Below are positions 9,114-20,924 of a stretch of DNA of 42,866 nucleotides, piece after piece. Each line of letters opens with the position of its first letter. Within the stretch, counting starts at the first letter, position 1. Both the position numbers and the translations under genes were made by a program. This DNA is from Bdellovibrionales bacterium. GTDB taxonomy: Bacteria > Bdellovibrionota > Bdellovibrionia > Bdellovibrionales > JAGQZY01. The DNA lies in assembly GCA_020435205.1 (NCBI GenBank), contig JAGQZY010000015.1, forward strand, positions 1-42,866, read 5' to 3'. The notes under the pieces are model-generated. The model was not told the DNA's origin. It was given only the letters and a program-made list of their open reading frames with translations, and did no database searches.

Positions 9114-10661
9114 ATGCGTTCATGGCTGAAATCCTATTCATTGCCCATTCTATCAGGAATCTTGATTGGCACAAGCTATATCCCCTTCCCGCCCTGGTCC
9201 CTTTTCTTTTGCTTGATCCCACTCTTGATCTTTTGGAGTCGGGAAACCTCTTGGAAAAAAATCCTCATTGGCGGGTGGCTGACCCAGTTTATTTTAAATG
9301 CCATTGGCTTTCATTGGATTGCATACACCACAGTAACATTCGGCCGTTTACCCTGGGCCGTCGGGCTTTTGGTGCTTTTGTTGTTTTGCTCATTGGCTCA
9401 TTTGTACTACCCTATTGCTGGCTTCATTTGGCACTACTTAACGAAAAAATTTAATCTTTCTCGACCGACTTCCTTGCTTGTTTTCCCCTTGATTTTTGTT
9501 TTTTGTGAGCGAATTTACCCTTACCTTTTTTATTGGCATTTTGGATATCCTTGGCTTTGGGCTAGGCTCCCTGGCTACCACTTGGCATCCTGGATAGGCT
9601 TTGTGGGACTAGATTTAATTACAATTTACATCAATATCCTTTTGTTTGCCTACTGGCAGGGGCGAGAGCCTAACTCCTGGCGAAAAAGTCCCGCTTTCAT
9701 TGGGGCTTTCGTTTTATTTATTGGCACAAATTTATTGGGCTTTATACAGTCCCAGTTCCCCACTCAAACCGATCAAAAATTAAAGGTCGTTGCCGTACAG
9801 GGTAATATTGGCAACCTGGAAAAGGCCTACGCCGAGCATGGAAATCGATATGTGGAAAGTATCGTCAACACATACATTGATCTCACCGAGAAAGCTCTTC
9901 TGGAAAACCCTGGCACCGATTTGGTGATTTGGCCTGAAACCGCCTTCCCCGAAATGATCTATCCCAATCGTTTAGGAAGGGAGCGACAACGACTGGCCCA
10001 ATTGACTGAAAAATATGACTTCCATCTTCTCACAGGGGCCTATCAGCGCAAATCCATTACCTACAAGGCTTTCAACGGGATAGTGCTGATGAAGGGAGAT
10101 AAGAATTTGGGTTCTTACCAAAAGACTCACCTGCTTGCCTATGGGGAGTACCTCCCTTTTGGTGAAACCTTTCCTCAACTCAAAAAAATGCTACCCATGG
10201 TTTCCGACTTTGGTCGAGGGGATGGCCCCGTAGTTATCGATTATGAAAAGGCAAAAATTGGGGCCCAAATCTGCTACGAAGGTCTTTTTGATGAGTTTTC
10301 CACAGAGCAACAACGCAATGGTGCACAAATTTATGTCAACATCACCAATGACTCTTGGTTTGGATGGCCCTTTGAGCCCTACCAGCACATGTTTATGACT
10401 CTTGCGAGAGCCGTGGAAAATCAGCGCCCTATGGTTCGCGTCACCAATACCGGCGTTACGACGGTGGCTCTCCCCACAGGGAAAACCTTGGAAATGTCTC
10501 CCCACGCCGTTCCCTGGTACGGAGTTTACGAAGTTCCCTTTGCCGCTACTCCCCCCTCCACTTTTTATGTTAGGCTAGCCATGAATTGGACCTGGATACT
10601 TTTTTTCCTGGTAGGACTGGCGATTTCAGGAGATCGGCTTGCAAGAACTGAAAAACATTGA
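9114..10661 (+). CDS. lnt: Apolipoprotein N-acyltransferase
   Basis: A 515-residue inner-membrane enzyme that adds the third acyl chain to the N-terminal Cys of lipoproteins. About six N-terminal membrane segments (to about residue 215) precede a nitrilase-fold domain with the Glu-Lys-Cys triad: E275 in WPETAFPE, K337 in YQKTHLLAYGEY and C387 in AQICYEG. Numbering almost equals E. coli Lnt (E267, K335, C387). A final membrane segment closes the protein. It fits the many lipoproteins in this window. No Shine-Dalgarno site precedes the ATG. Its last 23 bases overlap the start of mutS2, so the two are surely co-transcribed. Confidence 0.95.
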   Translation: MRSWLKSYSLPILSGILIGTSYIPFPPWSLFFCLIPLLIFWSRETSWKKILIGGWLTQFILNAIGFHWIAYTTVTFGRLPWAVGLLVLLLFCSLAHLYYPIAGFIWHYLTKKFNLSRPTSLLVFPLIFVFCERIYPYLFYWHFGYPWLWARLPGYHLASWIGFVGLDLITIYINILLFAYWQGREPNSWRKSPAFIGAFVLFIGTNLLGFIQSQFPTQTDQKLKVVAVQGNIGNLEKAYAEHGNRYVESIVNTYIDLTEKALLENPGTDLVIWPETAFPEMIYPNRLGRERQRLAQLTEKYDFHLLTGAYQRKSITYKAFNGIVLMKGDKNLGSYQKTHLLAYGEYLPFGETFPQLKKMLPMVSDFGRGDGPVVIDYEKAKIGAQICYEGLFDEFSTEQQRNGAQIYVNITNDSWFGWPFEPYQHMFMTLARAVENQRPMVRVTNTGVTTVALPTGKTLEMSPHAVPWYGVYEVPFAATPPSTFYVRLAMNWTWILFFLVGLAISGDRLARTEKH

Positions 10662-12969
10662 TTGGGAAGAAACACTCAACCATTTAATTTCTTTCACCAC
10701 GTCGTCGGAAGCTAAGGACAAATTAAAAAAGATCACACCTCTTATCAGCCAAGAGGAAGCGGAGGAGAGCTTCGCCACTATCGAAGAAGCTCAGAATATT
10801 TTAAAAACAGGCCAACGCCCCTATATGGAGTCTTTGGATGTTTACCATTCTTGGTTTTATCGCCTGGAAAAGAATGCCGTTTTAAAAACCATTGAGCTGA
10901 AAGATGTTCGCCTTTTTTTACTAGAGGTCGAAACCTTAGCTGTCATTTTAAAACCCTTAAAGGGCCCATGGATCTCTTCTGTGCGTGCCCAGCTGATGAA
11001 TCCCAAAGAAGCCCTCTCGGCCATTGATCAGCTGATGACTCCGCAAGGAGATATCCGCACGGATGCCTCGGAAACTTTGTATAAACTGCATCAAGAAAAA
11101 CGTCAGTTGGTGAACAAAGTACAAAACACCTTGGACCATCTGGTAAAAGGTCATGAGCACGAAACGGCCCTGCAAGACAAATATGTCACTAACCGGGAAG
11201 GCCGGTGGGTGATACCTATCAAAAGTGGAATGCGCCATGAGCTGGAGGGGATTATCCATGCCACCAGTTCGTCAAAGCAGACCGTTTTTATGGAACCGCA
11301 GGCGATCGTTCCCCTAAACAATCGGATCAAAGAACTTGAAGTCGACGTGGAAAAAGAGGTGGCAAGGCTTCTCAAAGAGGTTTCTGATTATTTATTTTTA
11401 AGTATAGATGACTTTGCTATCTCAAGGGACACCCTCCTTGAGGGCGATATATTTTTAGCAAAAGCTCAATTTGCCAACGTCACTTCGGCACACCCTGTGA
11501 CTTTTTCTAAAAACCAAATCTCTTTGAACGAACTCAAGCACCCTTTGATGGTTCTTAAGGGTGAGGTGGTGATCCCTAACAATTTGCAGCTCAACCCTGA
11601 CGAAAGGATTTTAATTCTTTCCGGACCGAACGCTGGCGGCAAAACTGTTTTATTGAAATCTTTTGGCTTGGCTGCCCATATGGCTCGTTGCGGATTACCC
11701 ATATGTGCAAAATCAGAATCCACTCTTCCTTTTTTTGAAGAGATCTTCATTGCGGTGGGTGATACCCAAAGTGTGGATCAAAGCTTAAGCACTTTTGCTG
11801 GCCATCTCAAAATTTTAGATCAAGCTTGCCATGCGAAAGGCTCTACATCCTTGGTACTCATCGATGAAATTTGCGGATCGACTGATCCCGATGAGGGTGC
11901 GGCGCTAGCGCGCGGTTTTGTTCATCATTATGCCTACCAGGGAGCTTTTGGCTTGATCACCTCCCACTTAGGCCCTTTGAAAATGGGCTGGGAAACTGGT
12001 TCCGGTATCGTCAATGGATCAATGAATTATGACACAGAATCCGGGCGCCCAACTTACGAATTCATTAGAGGAGTCCCTGGGAAATCTTTAGCTTTTGCCA
12101 CCGCAAAGAAAATTGGCATCCTTGATAGCGTTTACAACAATGCAAAGATATATTTGAGCCCTGCAGGACAGAAACGCTTACAAGCCATGGAAGAGGTAGA
12201 AAAGCTTAAAGAAGAAATTTCTTCCTTAAAGTCACAACTGCGCAAAGAGATTGAAGGCGTGCAAAAACGTGAACAGGAACTTGCCAAACAACAAAGGGAG
12301 TTTAGTCGTGATCGCGAGCAGCTCCTTAAAAAAGAAGTTGGTGAAGCTCTAGAAAAGGTTAAAGACGATATTAAAAAAGATCGAGTGAAGCGGGCCTTTG
12401 AAAGTAATGAAAGTCGACAAAAAATTTCAGCGGACTTCCCAGAAGTGGTTAAATACGGAGATAGTGAAACTACCTCGACAAAATTTGAAGATATCGAAAG
12501 TTTTATGAAGGCCTTTCCACCGGGAAGTTTGGTTTTTGTCACCACCCTTAATCAGGATGGTATTGTACAAGGGCACCCCAATGGCAAAGGGGAGATTCCG
12601 ATCCTTTCAGGATCGATGCGACTTTTTGTGGACTGGAATCATCTTAAACCACCAAAGAAAACTCAAAACCCACTCAAGAAGAAATCCGCTAGTGGCAATC
12701 ACCAGATCACTTATGATTTAAAAGCAGAAGATCTTGATCTGCGCGGACTGACTGTGAACGAGGCCATTGAAAAATTGGAAATGAACTTTGATAAAGCTGT
12801 GGCCAATAAAATGGAAAAGGTTAAAATTATTCATGGTCATGGATCGGACGCCTTAAAGAAAGCGGTGCGCTCCCACTGTTCACGCAGTGTTTACGTCAGC
12901 CGCTGGCAGGTGGCTTCAACCCACGATGGTGGTGATGGTGTGACCATCGCTTACCTTATGGGTGACTAA
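10639..12969 (+). CDS. mutS2: Endonuclease MutS2
   Basis: A 776-residue MutS-family ATPase with a C-terminal Smr nuclease domain; in various bacteria it limits homologous recombination or rescues stalled ribosomes. An N-terminal clamp/lever region leads to Walker A GPNAGGKT (329-336) and Walker B in LVLIDEICGSTDP. A charged coiled coil (about 515-600) follows, then the Smr domain (about 699-776) with LDLRGLTVNEA and IIHGHGSDALK. The mismatch-recognition domain of MutS is absent, as expected. The start is TTG, supported by AGGAG seven bases upstream, inside the end of lnt. Its stop codon is shared with the convergent gene (CTAA). Confidence 0.94.
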   Translation: MQELKNIDWEETLNHLISFTTSSEAKDKLKKITPLISQEEAEESFATIEEAQNILKTGQRPYMESLDVYHSWFYRLEKNAVLKTIELKDVRLFLLEVETLAVILKPLKGPWISSVRAQLMNPKEALSAIDQLMTPQGDIRTDASETLYKLHQEKRQLVNKVQNTLDHLVKGHEHETALQDKYVTNREGRWVIPIKSGMRHELEGIIHATSSSKQTVFMEPQAIVPLNNRIKELEVDVEKEVARLLKEVSDYLFLSIDDFAISRDTLLEGDIFLAKAQFANVTSAHPVTFSKNQISLNELKHPLMVLKGEVVIPNNLQLNPDERILILSGPNAGGKTVLLKSFGLAAHMARCGLPICAKSESTLPFFEEIFIAVGDTQSVDQSLSTFAGHLKILDQACHAKGSTSLVLIDEICGSTDPDEGAALARGFVHHYAYQGAFGLITSHLGPLKMGWETGSGIVNGSMNYDTESGRPTYEFIRGVPGKSLAFATAKKIGILDSVYNNAKIYLSPAGQKRLQAMEEVEKLKEEISSLKSQLRKEIEGVQKREQELAKQQREFSRDREQLLKKEVGEALEKVKDDIKKDRVKRAFESNESRQKISADFPEVVKYGDSETTSTKFEDIESFMKAFPPGSLVFVTTLNQDGIVQGHPNGKGEIPILSGSMRLFVDWNHLKPPKKTQNPLKKKSASGNHQITYDLKAEDLDLRGLTVNEAIEKLEMNFDKAVANKMEKVKIIHGHGSDALKKAVRSHCSRSVYVSRWQVASTHDGGDGVTIAYLMGD

Positions 12970-14171
12970 ACAGGGCCTTTATCAAACTGAAAGCCCATTT
13001 TAGGTACTATCACTGTGAGAACGCCATTTTCATAGGTTTTTGTGACATGCTCGTGGGCAGCAGGTTTTGCAAGATTGAACTCTTGGCGAATGGTTTGCGC
13101 CGAATTGCTCGAGATTGTTTCCGCTCCCTTCTTAAACTCCTGTTCATGGGCTCTGGTAGCAAAAATCGATAGCTTCCCTGGCTGCACATGAACTCTCACA
13201 TTTTTCATTTCATGTTCGGGAATTTTAGCTTTTAATTCATAAAAAGATGGACCTTCAAAGAAGTCCGCATTGAAGTCGACCAACTGATAAAAGGGGTCGT
13301 CTTTTCGGTCTTCGTAAAAATTAGCTTCACTCACAAAGTCTCGGCGAATTTTAAAAAGCTCTTCAGCATATCGATTCTTTTGGTTTTCTAAAGACCCTTT
13401 ATTTATCCGTTCATTTTCGTTGTAGCGCTTTGTATACTCTCTTCTCTGGTCCTGTATTTGATTCTGGAAAAACTGCTCTTCGGTATCTAGCTTTTTGTGA
13501 TACTGGTTTTCCTGGCGCTTTCTCATATTCTCTAGATGGGCTTGATTATCATGAAGCTCTTTTTGATGGGATTCCTTTTGTTGGCGCTCTTTTGTGGCAT
13601 AGGCGACCTTGCGGTCACGAAGCTGGGTTTGATTCAGCTGCTCCATACGATTCAATTCCTGACTATGACCTTTGCGCACAGAATCTTCGTGTTCTGCATA
13701 TTGAGCTCGTTTTTGGTTAATTTGAAAATTCCCCTCGTTCTCGAGTCGATGCAATTCTTTTTCAGTTTGCTCTTGCTTATGTTGCTTTTCTTGTACGTAA
13801 AACTGACGCTGTTCTTCAAGAGTTCGCTTTTCCATTTGAGCTTGCTGCCGCAGGCGTGCGTTTTCCTGCTGCTTCATCGCCGCTGCACGTAGGTAGTCCT
13901 TCTGCTGTTTGGTTTTCATCTCGGACATGTTCTTGGCATGGCGGTGGCGCTCCACGGCTTCGAGATTTTCATTTTGCAGTTGTTGACGATCTAACTGCTG
14001 TTTTTGATTGAGCTTTAGCTCACCTTTGACCTGCTCATGGTTGGCTCGCAATTTATGCAGCTCATCCTTTTGCCGCTGGTGCATTTGCTGCATCTGCTTG
14101 TCATGCTGAGCGTCGAGAGCCCGCATATTCTCACTATGAATGCTTTTTTTAATAGCATAATCCGAAGCCAA
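12966..14171 (-). CDS. Coiled-coil protein with C-terminal alpha-crystallin (Hsp20) domain
   Basis: A 401-residue cytoplasmic protein of rare layout. Residues about 10-275 are an uninterrupted, highly charged helix rich in Gln, Lys, Glu, Arg and His with almost no Pro or Gly, typical of a long coiled coil. A linker with DDPFYQLVDF (about 292-301) leads to an alpha-crystallin-type beta domain (about 310-393) with VRVHVQPGKLSIFATRA and the family end motif GVLTVIVPK. Small heat-shock proteins are usually about 150 aa, so the coiled coil replaces the short N-terminal arm. The TTG start has AGGAGG four bases upstream. It could be a chaperone with a rod-like oligomer or a structural scaffold; that is inference. 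It shares stop bases with mutS2. Confidence 0.75.
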   Translation of the reverse strand: MASDYAIKKSIHSENMRALDAQHDKQMQQMHQRQKDELHKLRANHEQVKGELKLNQKQQLDRQQLQNENLEAVERHRHAKNMSEMKTKQQKDYLRAAAMKQQENARLRQQAQMEKRTLEEQRQFYVQEKQHKQEQTEKELHRLENEGNFQINQKRAQYAEHEDSVRKGHSQELNRMEQLNQTQLRDRKVAYATKERQQKESHQKELHDNQAHLENMRKRQENQYHKKLDTEEQFFQNQIQDQRREYTKRYNENERINKGSLENQKNRYAEELFKIRRDFVSEANFYEDRKDDPFYQLVDFNADFFEGPSFYELKAKIPEHEMKNVRVHVQPGKLSIFATRAHEQEFKKGAETISSNSAQTIRQEFNLAKPAAHEHVTKTYENGVLTVIVPKMGFQFDKGPV

Positions 14172-14228
14172 GATTCCTCCTGAATCCTTACCTAGAGTGC
14201 ATCCTACACCTTTTTATTTTAGCATTAT

Positions 14229-14522
14229 TTATTCACTTTGCGGTTGCCTGAGCTCAGATTCCGACTTTAGTGAGTCGAGGGTCACAGGACGTTGGCAAAG
14301 GGGCTTCAGCCCGTCATTTCGCTTCCAACACATCCAGTGGTCCACCACTTCTATGCTCTCGTTTTCATTGAGGTGGTGATAATCTCGATACTGCAACCCG
14401 TCTAAAGTCGAGTGCACAATGCGCGACTTGCTCTCCTTGCTGTCGGTGATTTTGAGCTTAAAAACCCGGTACTCAGCAAAACCCATCACAGGACCAATGA
14501 CTAGAAAAAGTATCCACTTCAT
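14229..14522 (-). CDS. Small exported hypothetical protein
   Basis: A 97-residue protein with a signal peptide (residues 1-16, ending GFA) and a mature part containing EYRVFKLKITD, STLDGLQYRDYHHL and VVDHWMCWKRNDG, with a second Cys about 12 residues after the first, so one disulfide is possible. The ATG has AAGGA three bases upstream. The gene lies 46 nt downstream of the next minus-strand gene, so the two may form a transcript. I recognise no named family. The protein looks real because of its signal peptide, ribosome site and normal codon use. Confidence 0.6.
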   Translation of the reverse strand: MKWILFLVIGPVMGFAEYRVFKLKITDSKESKSRIVHSTLDGLQYRDYHHLNENESIEVVDHWMCWKRNDGLKPLCQRPVTLDSLKSESELRQPQSE

Positions 14523-15127: not shown

Positions 15128-15970
15128 ATGGGAAGCAAAAAACGGGTGACCGAACAAGAGCAAATCATCATCGACAAAGACAACGATCTCGTCTTCGCTA
15201 GCGAAGAGGATGTGCTCGAATATTTTGCAGAACCCATTTCCCATTTCGAAGCGGAATACCTCAATCAGCGAACCAATGAAGATTTTAGCGACGATGAAAG
15301 CTTCAACAAGGAAGAAGAGCTGGAAGAGCTTCTACAATCCCCTGATGAAGTTTGGGAAGACAGCGAATCTTTAAAAGACATCACCGTCTATAACTTTATC
15401 AAAGCTTTTCACAACGAAGAAAAGGACGAAGTTTTTTACTACATTGCCGTCGCCTATTTGGCTGAAGATGTGCCGACTTTTGTTTTCCTTCACTTCCCGA
15501 CTCGCTTTGATAGTGTTTGTGAACACTATCGCCGCGGAGACTTGGTTTTTGATCGCTCGCGCGAAGAGTCTGAAAGTGGCGGTATCGAAGGTGATGCTTT
15601 GAGCGAAGGCGATGAATTGGCTCTTGGACTTTACAAATCCATGCTCATAGTAAGAAGTCCTAATGATATCGAAGAAACTCTTTTTCAAAATTATGCGGAA
15701 CTGCGTGAAGACACCATCGAAGAAGCGGACGAAATTTGGCGCAACACCACACTTTCAGGTTACACTCTGGTCACTTTTATAAAAGATTTTTCAAGGGCCG
15801 AAGAAGGGGCTGAACACCTATACTATTTGGCTGTGACTCTTGAGGATGAGGGCACCAATAGCCATGCCCTCATGTTTTCCTTTCCCACCAATGACGAAAC
15901 TTTAGTGGACCGCTACCGCCACGGCGAGAATCTTCAAGCCGAGGAAGTCATACAGGAATCTAGTCACTGA
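15128..15970 (+). CDS. Acidic protein with two copies of one domain
   Basis: A 280-residue, strongly acidic cytoplasmic protein. Two segments align to each other: about 69-141 (SPDEVWEDS ... FYYIAVAYLAE ... FLHFPTRFDSVCEHYRRGD) and about 198-267 (EADEIWRNT ... LYYLAVTLED ... MFSFPTNDETLVDRYRHGE). The shared frame is [PA]DE-[VI]-W, an aromatic beta strand YY[IL]AV, FPT and a YR-x-G end. This resembles the barnase/EndoU/RelE-like fold families found in phage-type proteins (PBECR), but I hold that loosely. The ATG has GGGAGG upstream. Its stop overlaps the next convergent gene by 7 nt. Confidence 0.7.
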   Translation: MGSKKRVTEQEQIIIDKDNDLVFASEEDVLEYFAEPISHFEAEYLNQRTNEDFSDDESFNKEEELEELLQSPDEVWEDSESLKDITVYNFIKAFHNEEKDEVFYYIAVAYLAEDVPTFVFLHFPTRFDSVCEHYRRGDLVFDRSREESESGGIEGDALSEGDELALGLYKSMLIVRSPNDIEETLFQNYAELREDTIEEADEIWRNTTLSGYTLVTFIKDFSRAEEGAEHLYYLAVTLEDEGTNSHALMFSFPTNDETLVDRYRHGENLQAEEVIQESSH

Positions 15971-19110: not shown

Positions 19111-19764
19111 CTAATATTCACAAGCCAAAGAATCCAGCTCAGCTGCCGTTATATCGTGCCTCACCTCTCCATACCTTAATTTTGACTGCATCACTGGATT
19201 TCCTGGTCCCTCAATATGATCAAGCCCCAAAGCATGGCCCATTTCGTGGACCAGGAGGCTAATCAATTCCACCTTGCCAGAACTCGATGAAAGGGTCTGA
19301 TCTCCAATATAAAAGTTCTCAGAGGCGTCCAATAATATATCGGCTTCATAAATAAAATCGCTGCGAAAACTAAGGCTTGTCTTCCCTTGCTCATCACGGG
19401 CCAAACTATTGCTAAAGAGCTCGGGTTTCACCATATAAATTCCATTGTAACCGTCAGGAATCACTCTCCCTTGCCCATCCAACTCAGGCTCAGGAAGTTG
19501 ACCTGTCCGACCAATAATTTGAAAAACACTTCCATTAAAATGAGAGTTCCATATCTCCGTGGCCTTTAAAACGGCGTCGTACTGCTCGTTACTGAGACTA
19601 TCATCGACATAGAACTGGATGGGCATGCGATACCAGGACACTCTGCGGTTCAAACTGTTGGTGACAAAGTTACAGGATTCTTCAGGGGGAAGCTGTTGAC
19701 CACAACCTGTAGTGATCGCAAACATGAGGAATAAAATAGAACTGGCAATAAGCTTCCGAATCAT
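19111..19764 (-). CDS. Matrixin-like zinc metalloprotease lipoprotein
   Basis: A 217-residue lipoprotein: signal peptide MIRKLIASSILFLMF with lipobox ITTGC, so the Cys at residue 20 is lipidated. The C-terminal half holds the metzincin zinc site HEMGHALGLDH (H173, E174, H177, H183) and the Met-turn Met in NPVMQSKL about nine residues later, as in M10/M12-type matrixins. The DNA allows a longer frame upstream, but the ATG at 19764 has AAGGAGG just upstream and begins the lipoprotein signal, so I use it. It likely acts on the outer membrane or at the cell surface, where it would degrade proteins. It is monocistronic. Confidence 0.85.
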   Translation of the reverse strand: MIRKLIASSILFLMFAITTGCGQQLPPEESCNFVTNSLNRRVSWYRMPIQFYVDDSLSNEQYDAVLKATEIWNSHFNGSVFQIIGRTGQLPEPELDGQGRVIPDGYNGIYMVKPELFSNSLARDEQGKTSLSFRSDFIYEADILLDASENFYIGDQTLSSSSGKVELISLLVHEMGHALGLDHIEGPGNPVMQSKLRYGEVRHDITAAELDSLACEY

Positions 19765-20000
19765 ATCCTCCTTTATTTCAAGGGCCGTACCAGATCGAGA
19801 CGAGCCATCAACATACTGATAATACTTCAATTTTGCCCAATTCGCCGAATCACCGAGTGACGTTTTTGGGCCACTGAGGGAGGAGGACAAGGTAGTTCTT
19901 TCAGGGTCATAGACTAAGGACCTAGATTTCTTAAACTTTTTTACCGGACAATTTTTAATCACCCCTGGCAAAAAAAAGCACAGCCGGGAAAGCCTAGCTC

Positions 20001-20924
20001 CTAGTGGATTTGCGCGGAGCCTGAATCTTTATAAAGGATTGTGATCTCATTGGGTGAAAAGGAATAAACTCGACCACACATCTCGCAGTCCACATTGACC
20101 CACTCATTTTTTTGAATCATGTCACGCATATCCTCTCCACCTAGCATTTGGATAGAGACTCCTGCTTTTTCTTTGGTACAGCTACAGTGCCACTGCACCT
20201 GGCGTTCCTCGATCTCTTTGACCTCGATAGGTCCAATGGAATTTTCTAAAAGCTTGGCAAAATCGTACTTCTCCTCGATGAGATCTGAAAGCGGCAGAGC
20301 CGTCTTTTGCTTGCGCTCGATACTGGCTACCAACTCTTCGGTATGGCCAGGCATGAGTTCAACCAAGACTCCTCCAGCGGCCGTGACCATACCCTCATGG
20401 CCAATCTTCACGGCTAAGGAGAGGAGGCAGGGAATTTGTGATGACTGGCTCAGATAATGGGCCAAATCTTCACCGATCTCACCACTGACAATTTCTAACT
20501 GACTTTGCCGAGGCACCTTCACCCCCGGAACGAGCAAGGATACGCTCAACACCCCACCTCCCACTAAAGGAGCCAGTGAAAATTGATTATTTTTCACCGA
20601 CATAGGAGCTAAACGTTCACTAATATAGGCGCGGCACAACCCATCGTACTGAGCATGGGCAAAGATTTTTTTAATATCCCCTCGCCCACTCACCTGCACC
20701 GTCATCGCTTGCTCGTCTTTCAGTTGACTAGCCAGCAATAAAGCTCCCGCAAGTAAACGCCCCACCGCCACAGTCGATGTGGGCGAGGTCCCCTGCATGA
20801 TGCGGACGTCCTCAAGAAGCTCCGTCATTTTTAGGACAGAGGCTCTTAAAGTTTTGTCTTTGGAAAGATATTTCTTCAGGGTACCGGTGTTTGTCACTGA
20901 ACTCATGGTAAAAAAGGCTAACAC
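20001..20924 (-). CDS. hslO: Redox-regulated chaperone Hsp33
   Basis: A 307-residue cytoplasmic holdase that becomes active on oxidation. The N-terminal dimer domain contains the family stretch SPTSTVAVGRLLAGALLLASQ and later SGRGDIKKIFAHA; the C-terminal zinc-switch has CxC (C247, C249) and CxxC (C280, C283), the four zinc ligands. Length matches Hsp33 (about 290-300 aa). The first in-frame start is GTG; an ATG six codons later (MSSVTNTG) is an alternative, and neither has a good ribosome site. A G/C-rich hairpin lies 20-40 bases upstream. It is divergent from a histidine phosphatase gene. Confidence 0.93.
   Translation of the reverse strand: MLAFFTMSSVTNTGTLKKYLSKDKTLRASVLKMTELLEDVRIMQGTSPTSTVAVGRLLAGALLLASQLKDEQAMTVQVSGRGDIKKIFAHAQYDGLCRAYISERLAPMSVKNNQFSLAPLVGGGVLSVSLLVPGVKVPRQSQLEIVSGEIGEDLAHYLSQSSQIPCLLSLAVKIGHEGMVTAAGGVLVELMPGHTEELVASIERKQKTALPLSDLIEEKYDFAKLLENSIGPIEVKEIEERQVQWHCSCTKEKAGVSIQMLGGEDMRDMIQKNEWVNVDCEMCGRVYSFSPNEITILYKDSGSAQIH

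Follow-up and report, generated by a model that had tools for sequence, protein, structure and literature searches.

Small heat-shock proteins (sHsps) are regarded as short-armed, cage-forming holdases, in which a hydrophobic, flexible arm binds substrate. A gene in the window—the whole 42,866-nt stretch of Bdellovibrionales DNA analyzed here—raises the question of what an alpha-crystallin domain (ACD) does when it sits at the end of a long, charged rod. The gene, which we call rod-ACD (12966..14171, minus strand), encodes 401 amino acids and runs from a TTG start, placed 4 nt downstream of a Shine-Dalgarno AGGAGG (14176..14181, minus strand), to a TAG stop that overlaps the stop of a convergent MutS2-like gene (10639-12969, labeled by reading of its sequence rather than by family search). 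It is present in one copy in the window's genome; a plasmid copy was looked for, and none was found. The nearest homologues of the protein (L035/L006) match it at 49% over the full length, and no signal peptide is evident in the 401 residues.

A hendecad coiled-coil rod

AlphaFold2 models residues 6-289 (13305..14156, minus strand) as one unbroken helix, with a pLDDT of about 90 at residues 120-280. The first-pass annotation had described a coiled coil of about 265 residues joined to a C-terminal ACD, and this architecture is real: the helix is, if anything, longer than stated, the N-terminus forms a single helix rather than a globular fold, Foldseek and a Pfam HSP20 match at residues 306-392 identify the C-terminal domain, and the predicted coil is supported, with the addition that its repeat is a hendecad. 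Over 278 residues, the rod contains no prolines and consists of 37% Asp, Glu, Lys, and Arg and 35% Gln, Asn, His, Ser, and Thr.

The hydrophobic residues of the rod recur with a period of 3.66, a signal stronger than in each of 200 shuffles (z 8.4), and the spectrum of strong hydrophobics peaks at that same value (11/3) in 27 of 28 rod proteins and at 3.68 in the remaining one. A peak at 3.5 was looked for in the mean spectrum of these 28 proteins and was absent, ruling out a heptad coil; as a control, the heptad coil protein of an HD100-like genome gave 3.52 by the same method. In 20 further members, drawn from other families in the class and phylum, the peak lay between 3.655 and 3.68; one of them (L137) has a periodicity not above its shuffles. 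With 11/3 periodicity running over a long proline-free helix, the rod is by this measure a hendecad and not a heptad coil, and the shuffles together with conservation across the phylum rule out chance or a low-complexity artefact.

The hydrophobic stripe itself is narrow. About 20% of rod residues are strongly hydrophobic, mostly Leu or Ile at a single hendecad position; 72% of repeats have a hydrophobic residue there and 30% at two other positions, with Lys, Glu, and Gln mixed elsewhere. We also considered a single alpha-helix stabilized by salt bridges only, and prefer the coil because the hydrophobic periodicity is strong and i/i+4 salt bridges are just modestly enriched in the window rod (z 2.5). 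Several chains most likely associate through the rod, as its repeat pattern suggests; the AlphaFold2 model is of the monomer and has a pTM of 0.28.

A derived alpha-crystallin domain

The C-terminal domain (residues 300-392; 12996..13274, minus strand) matches Pfam HSP20 above the curated cut-off (E 1.4e-7), has PDB sequence matches to sHsps that include plant Hsp16.9, and is modeled by AlphaFold2 as a beta sandwich both within the whole chain and alone. The best 50 structural matches from Foldseek are all small heat-shock proteins, and 20 of 25 family members tested match Pfam HSP20. The ACD is nevertheless of a derived type, since the signature Ala and the beta-7 Arg are replaced and the IXI anchor is mostly missing. 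In the signature AxxxnGvL, Ala is kept in none of 64 members (Arg in 31, Lys in 21) versus 16 of 16 ordinary sHsps of related genomes; the window protein, with KTYENGVL, keeps the nGvL half. Loose matches to the IXI/V anchor occur in 7 of 63 members, at least one of them from a mis-set tail, versus 13 of 15 ordinary sHsps. The window protein ends in MGFQFDKGPV, without an IXI, and a third of members end five or fewer residues after the last strand. Finally, the column equivalent to R120 of alphaB holds Glu in 46, Gln in 12, and Lys in 6 of 64 members versus Arg in 14 of 16 ordinary sHsps, although this column match is alignment-dependent and a nearly invariant Arg lies one residue before it in rod-ACDs. 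The protein thus carries an ACD but, judged on its sequence, fails several hallmarks of classic sHsps.

A metazoan-type ACD, to which a long beta5/beta6+7 hairpin in the models might point, was set aside: the loop length is plant/bacterial-like and pLDDT is only 60-70 there. The beta5-to-beta7 spacing, 22 versus 23 residues in a by-eye count on the PDB alignment, is likewise close to the plant/bacterial type.

Ordinary sHsps coexist with rod-ACD in the window's own genome and in related genomes, and in a phylogenetic tree they form one branch with 100/100 support, with the rod-ACDs outside it. Because these ordinary proteins retain IXI and a branch of their own, general holdase work appears to be covered already. 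The window's genome also holds a short, very divergent ACD-only reading frame near a contig end (L004, G000:C136:13791-14063), which falls on a long branch among the rod-ACDs with unreliable placement.

Rod length, register, and rod loss

Orthologues of rod-ACD occur in a conserved gene block throughout the Bdellovibrionia, and relatives of the same architecture are found across the Bdellovibrionota, including B. bacteriovorus; all occurrence counts given here are within that phylum. The domain is present in 55 of 60 relatives searched, almost without exception in reading frames of 400-600 amino acids. Across 291 genomes of the phylum, 258 have profile matches; as the weaker of these are ordinary sHsps, the family itself can be in no more than that number. 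Most of the strong matches lie on frames of 380-600 amino acids, and most of the match-free genomes in the window's order are small (1.2-2.1 Mb). Named records place the gene in the Bdellovibrionia, for example in B. bacteriovorus kdesi, and a further copy lies at 1,201,510-1,202,793 (minus strand) in a genome that we take to be B. bacteriovorus HD100.

The rod can be measured between two motifs: NHI near the N-terminus in members of the class, and DPFY at the junction with the ACD (residues 292-295 in the window protein; 13287..13298, minus strand), with D, F, and Y invariant in the order-level alignment. The distance between them is exactly 352 residues, or 32 × 11, in 15 class members, of which 14 are non-redundant and share pairwise identities of 13-41% (mean 19%). 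Aligning the same members one hendecad out of register lowers the mean identity to 11.6%. Elsewhere the distance is 341 in one lineage and 308 in another—one and four whole hendecads fewer—and in the Bdellovibrio group it is 257, which additionally needs a phase change of 4 or 7 residues. Gln is conserved 28 and 50 residues before DPFY. Given an exact length in 14 divergent members and differences of whole hendecads in other lineages, selection seems to act on both the length and the register of the rod, as would be expected of a spacer. The exact-length result is limited to the Bdellovibrionia, and within them excludes the window's lineage, because the window protein has a shorter rod without the NHI motif, which is likewise absent from members outside the class.

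In one genus (g10, L159-L167), 9 of 10 genomes encode a shortened version of 215-262 amino acids, in which a short head and an apparently disordered linker are what is left of the rod and the NHI-motif region and the ACD are retained. No orthologue is present in the tenth, a complete genome (G011) that presumably belongs to the epibiotic predator Pseudobdellovibrio exovorus JSS. Since most of the rod is gone in this genus yet the ACD is kept, and since the rod in the window's lineage is shorter and without NHI, the rod is not always needed. The pattern hints that it may matter less where prey are not invaded, a lead from one lineage.

A conserved gene neighborhood

Directly upstream of rod-ACD lies B97 (14229..14522, minus strand), a small protein with a likely signal peptide, the sequence AEYRVF at its presumed mature N-terminus, and two invariant Cys; it is the immediate same-strand neighbor in 44 of 48 class-level loci. 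Next is C104 (14569..14883, minus strand), a conserved protein of about 105 amino acids that is of cytoplasmic type, ends in an invariant His, and often accompanies rod-ACD throughout the phylum, its stop overlapping the rod-ACD start by one base in some lineages without B97. Searches returned no Pfam match for B97 and no convincing Pfam or PDB match for C104. The block C104-(B97)-rod-ACD is conserved across the phylum, and a divergently oriented gene, D280 (15128..15970, plus strand), which encodes a PBECR2-like domain (Pfam PF18810, 1e-11), stands beside the operon in 40 loci and also across the phylum. Because B97 looks secreted, it is probably not a direct partner of rod-ACD, whereas C104, which looks cytoplasmic, is the best candidate.

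The gap from the end of B97 to the rod-ACD start contains a putative extended -10 promoter-like element, TGCTAAAAT (14216..14224, minus strand), suggested by conservation of the motif TGNTANNNT, which occurs anywhere in the upstream stretch of 37 of 68 relatives versus 6.3 expected from shuffles. At most Bdellovibrio-type loci (for example, L067 8511-9850), an extended -10 of the form TGATACACT precedes the ATG by exactly 15 nt, and there is no Shine-Dalgarno; the rod-ACD mRNA is therefore predicted to be leaderless in many Bdellovibrionia.

Two further observations concern the surroundings of the operon. D280 contains two PBECR2-like stretches, and genes for a matrixin-like M10 metalloprotease (19111-19971, minus strand) and Hsp33 (20001-20924, minus strand) lie a few kilobases away in the window; matrixin-like genes are often found near the rod-ACD operon in relatives.

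A proposed role and its alternatives

The explanation that we favor, with somewhat better than even confidence, is that rod-ACD assembles into an elongated oligomer, not a cage, in which the ACDs are terminal, and serves as a scaffold or stalked chaperone. Its helices would associate via a nearly straight hendecad (11-residue, 3+4+4) coiled coil to give a cytoplasmic, highly elongated homo-oligomer, with a coil of about 42 nm in the window protein and about 60 nm where the rod has its longer, common length. Each chain would terminate in its derived ACD, and at the end of this fixed-length spacer the ACDs would most likely dimerize or bind partners or substrates; as they lack the IXI anchor, the usual sHsp cage would not be built. 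Made together with the C104 protein, such a molecule could keep ACDs at a set distance, as a scaffold or a "stalked" holdase, or link two structures of the cell. We infer the oligomeric state, the parallel orientation, the non-cage assembly, and the scaffold role. Counting against this explanation are the weak core, in which one hendecad position is strongly hydrophobic and two reach 30%, the low pTM of the monomer, the absence of NHI in the window's lineage, and the loss of most of the rod in g10.

The first-pass annotation treated the fusion as a single case, whereas the family is old, spans the phylum, and has a conserved operon. Its view that this is not a normal ball-type sHsp agrees with the rod in place of a short arm, the mostly missing IXI, and the derived ACD; of its interpretation, the fusion and the departure from a cage-type sHsp are supported, but the proposed filament or cable is no more than possible, and two or three chains might just as well make up a discrete stalked particle of 40-60 nm. 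By analogy with lamins, a filament would have the rods polymerize end to end or laterally into fibers resembling intermediate filaments (IFs), with the Ig-like ACD as a tail. A long unbroken rod, its precisely conserved length, the two conserved Gln, the beta-sandwich tail, and the wide occurrence of the family in the phylum would all suit such fibers, but simple stalks also use hendecad rods, IF rods are mainly heptad-based while the period here is 3.66, and the one Bdellovibrio coil protein called IF-like in the literature searched, Ccrp, is probably another gene. We therefore think a cytoskeletal filament unlikely. A broader proposal is a phylum-specific cytoskeletal or ruler element, in which a measured hendecad rod carries an Ig-like ACD tail drawn from a chaperone fold, in parallel to lamins, with the rod lost in a lineage to which an epibiotic predator apparently belongs; this we regard as possible but improbable.

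Rod-ACD might instead be a true holdase for general stress protection that has merely acquired a long coiled-coil N-terminal arm, as its ACD fold and matches, and the survival of the ACD without the rod in g10, would allow. Set against this, canonical sHsps also occur in this and related genomes, the hallmark residues and IXI have been lost, and the rod is highly charged, unlike the hydrophobic, flexible sHsp arm; we rate this reading as decidedly unlikely. The 11-residue repeat could also belong to an amphipathic helix that binds lipids or surfaces and forms no coiled coil, given that 11/3 periodicity is common to the lipid-binding (perilipin) and LEA 11-mer repeats. Such a helix would not need exact conservation of length and register, and it fits poorly with a narrow stripe and mixed Lys, Glu, and Gln elsewhere, so that we give it very little credence.

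Comparison with known systems

We found no paper naming the rod-ACD protein in our literature search, for which many journals lay outside coverage. The nearest candidate for identity was Bdellovibrio Ccrp, but the presumed Ccrp site in the HD100-like genome (2,618,741-2,619,964, with the locus number assumed) is occupied by a different protein, a heptad coil of 407 aa, and the two are probably not the same gene. Rod-ACD resembles crescentin, FilP, and Ccrp in having a long coiled-coil rod and a probably cytoplasmic location, and differs in its hendecad rather than heptad repeat and in its folded ACD tail. Within the literature searched, no Bdellovibrio coil protein other than Ccrp is described as IF-like (cited in PMC8938487). 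Hendecad coiled-coil proteins share the 11-residue hydrophobic repeat over hundreds of residues; none ending in an ACD was found in the literature searched, which did not extend to a published survey of hendecad families. Lamins, too, combine a length-conserved rod with a beta-sandwich domain behind it, a likeness by analogy with no homology claimed, but their main coil periodicity is another one.

Keeping an ACD on a hendecad rod beside ordinary sHsps, with a length that is residue-exact across deep divergence in one class, departs from the usual picture of these chaperones. If the protein is a true scaffold, bacteria that change shape during predation would possess a structural protein of a new kind, and if it is a true stalked chaperone, it would represent a new way to position an ACD; the copy in tractable Bdellovibrio makes either directly testable. 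Compared with the sHsps themselves (Hsp20, Pfam PF00011; wheat Hsp16.9, 1GME), the ACD fold and strand order are alike, as are the GVLTVxVPK-type last strand of the window protein and the plant/bacterial-like beta5-to-beta7 spacing, whereas rod-ACD departs from them in bearing a hendecad rod of 280-400 residues rather than a short arm, in its replaced signature Ala and beta-7 Arg and mostly absent IXI, and in occupying a separate branch.
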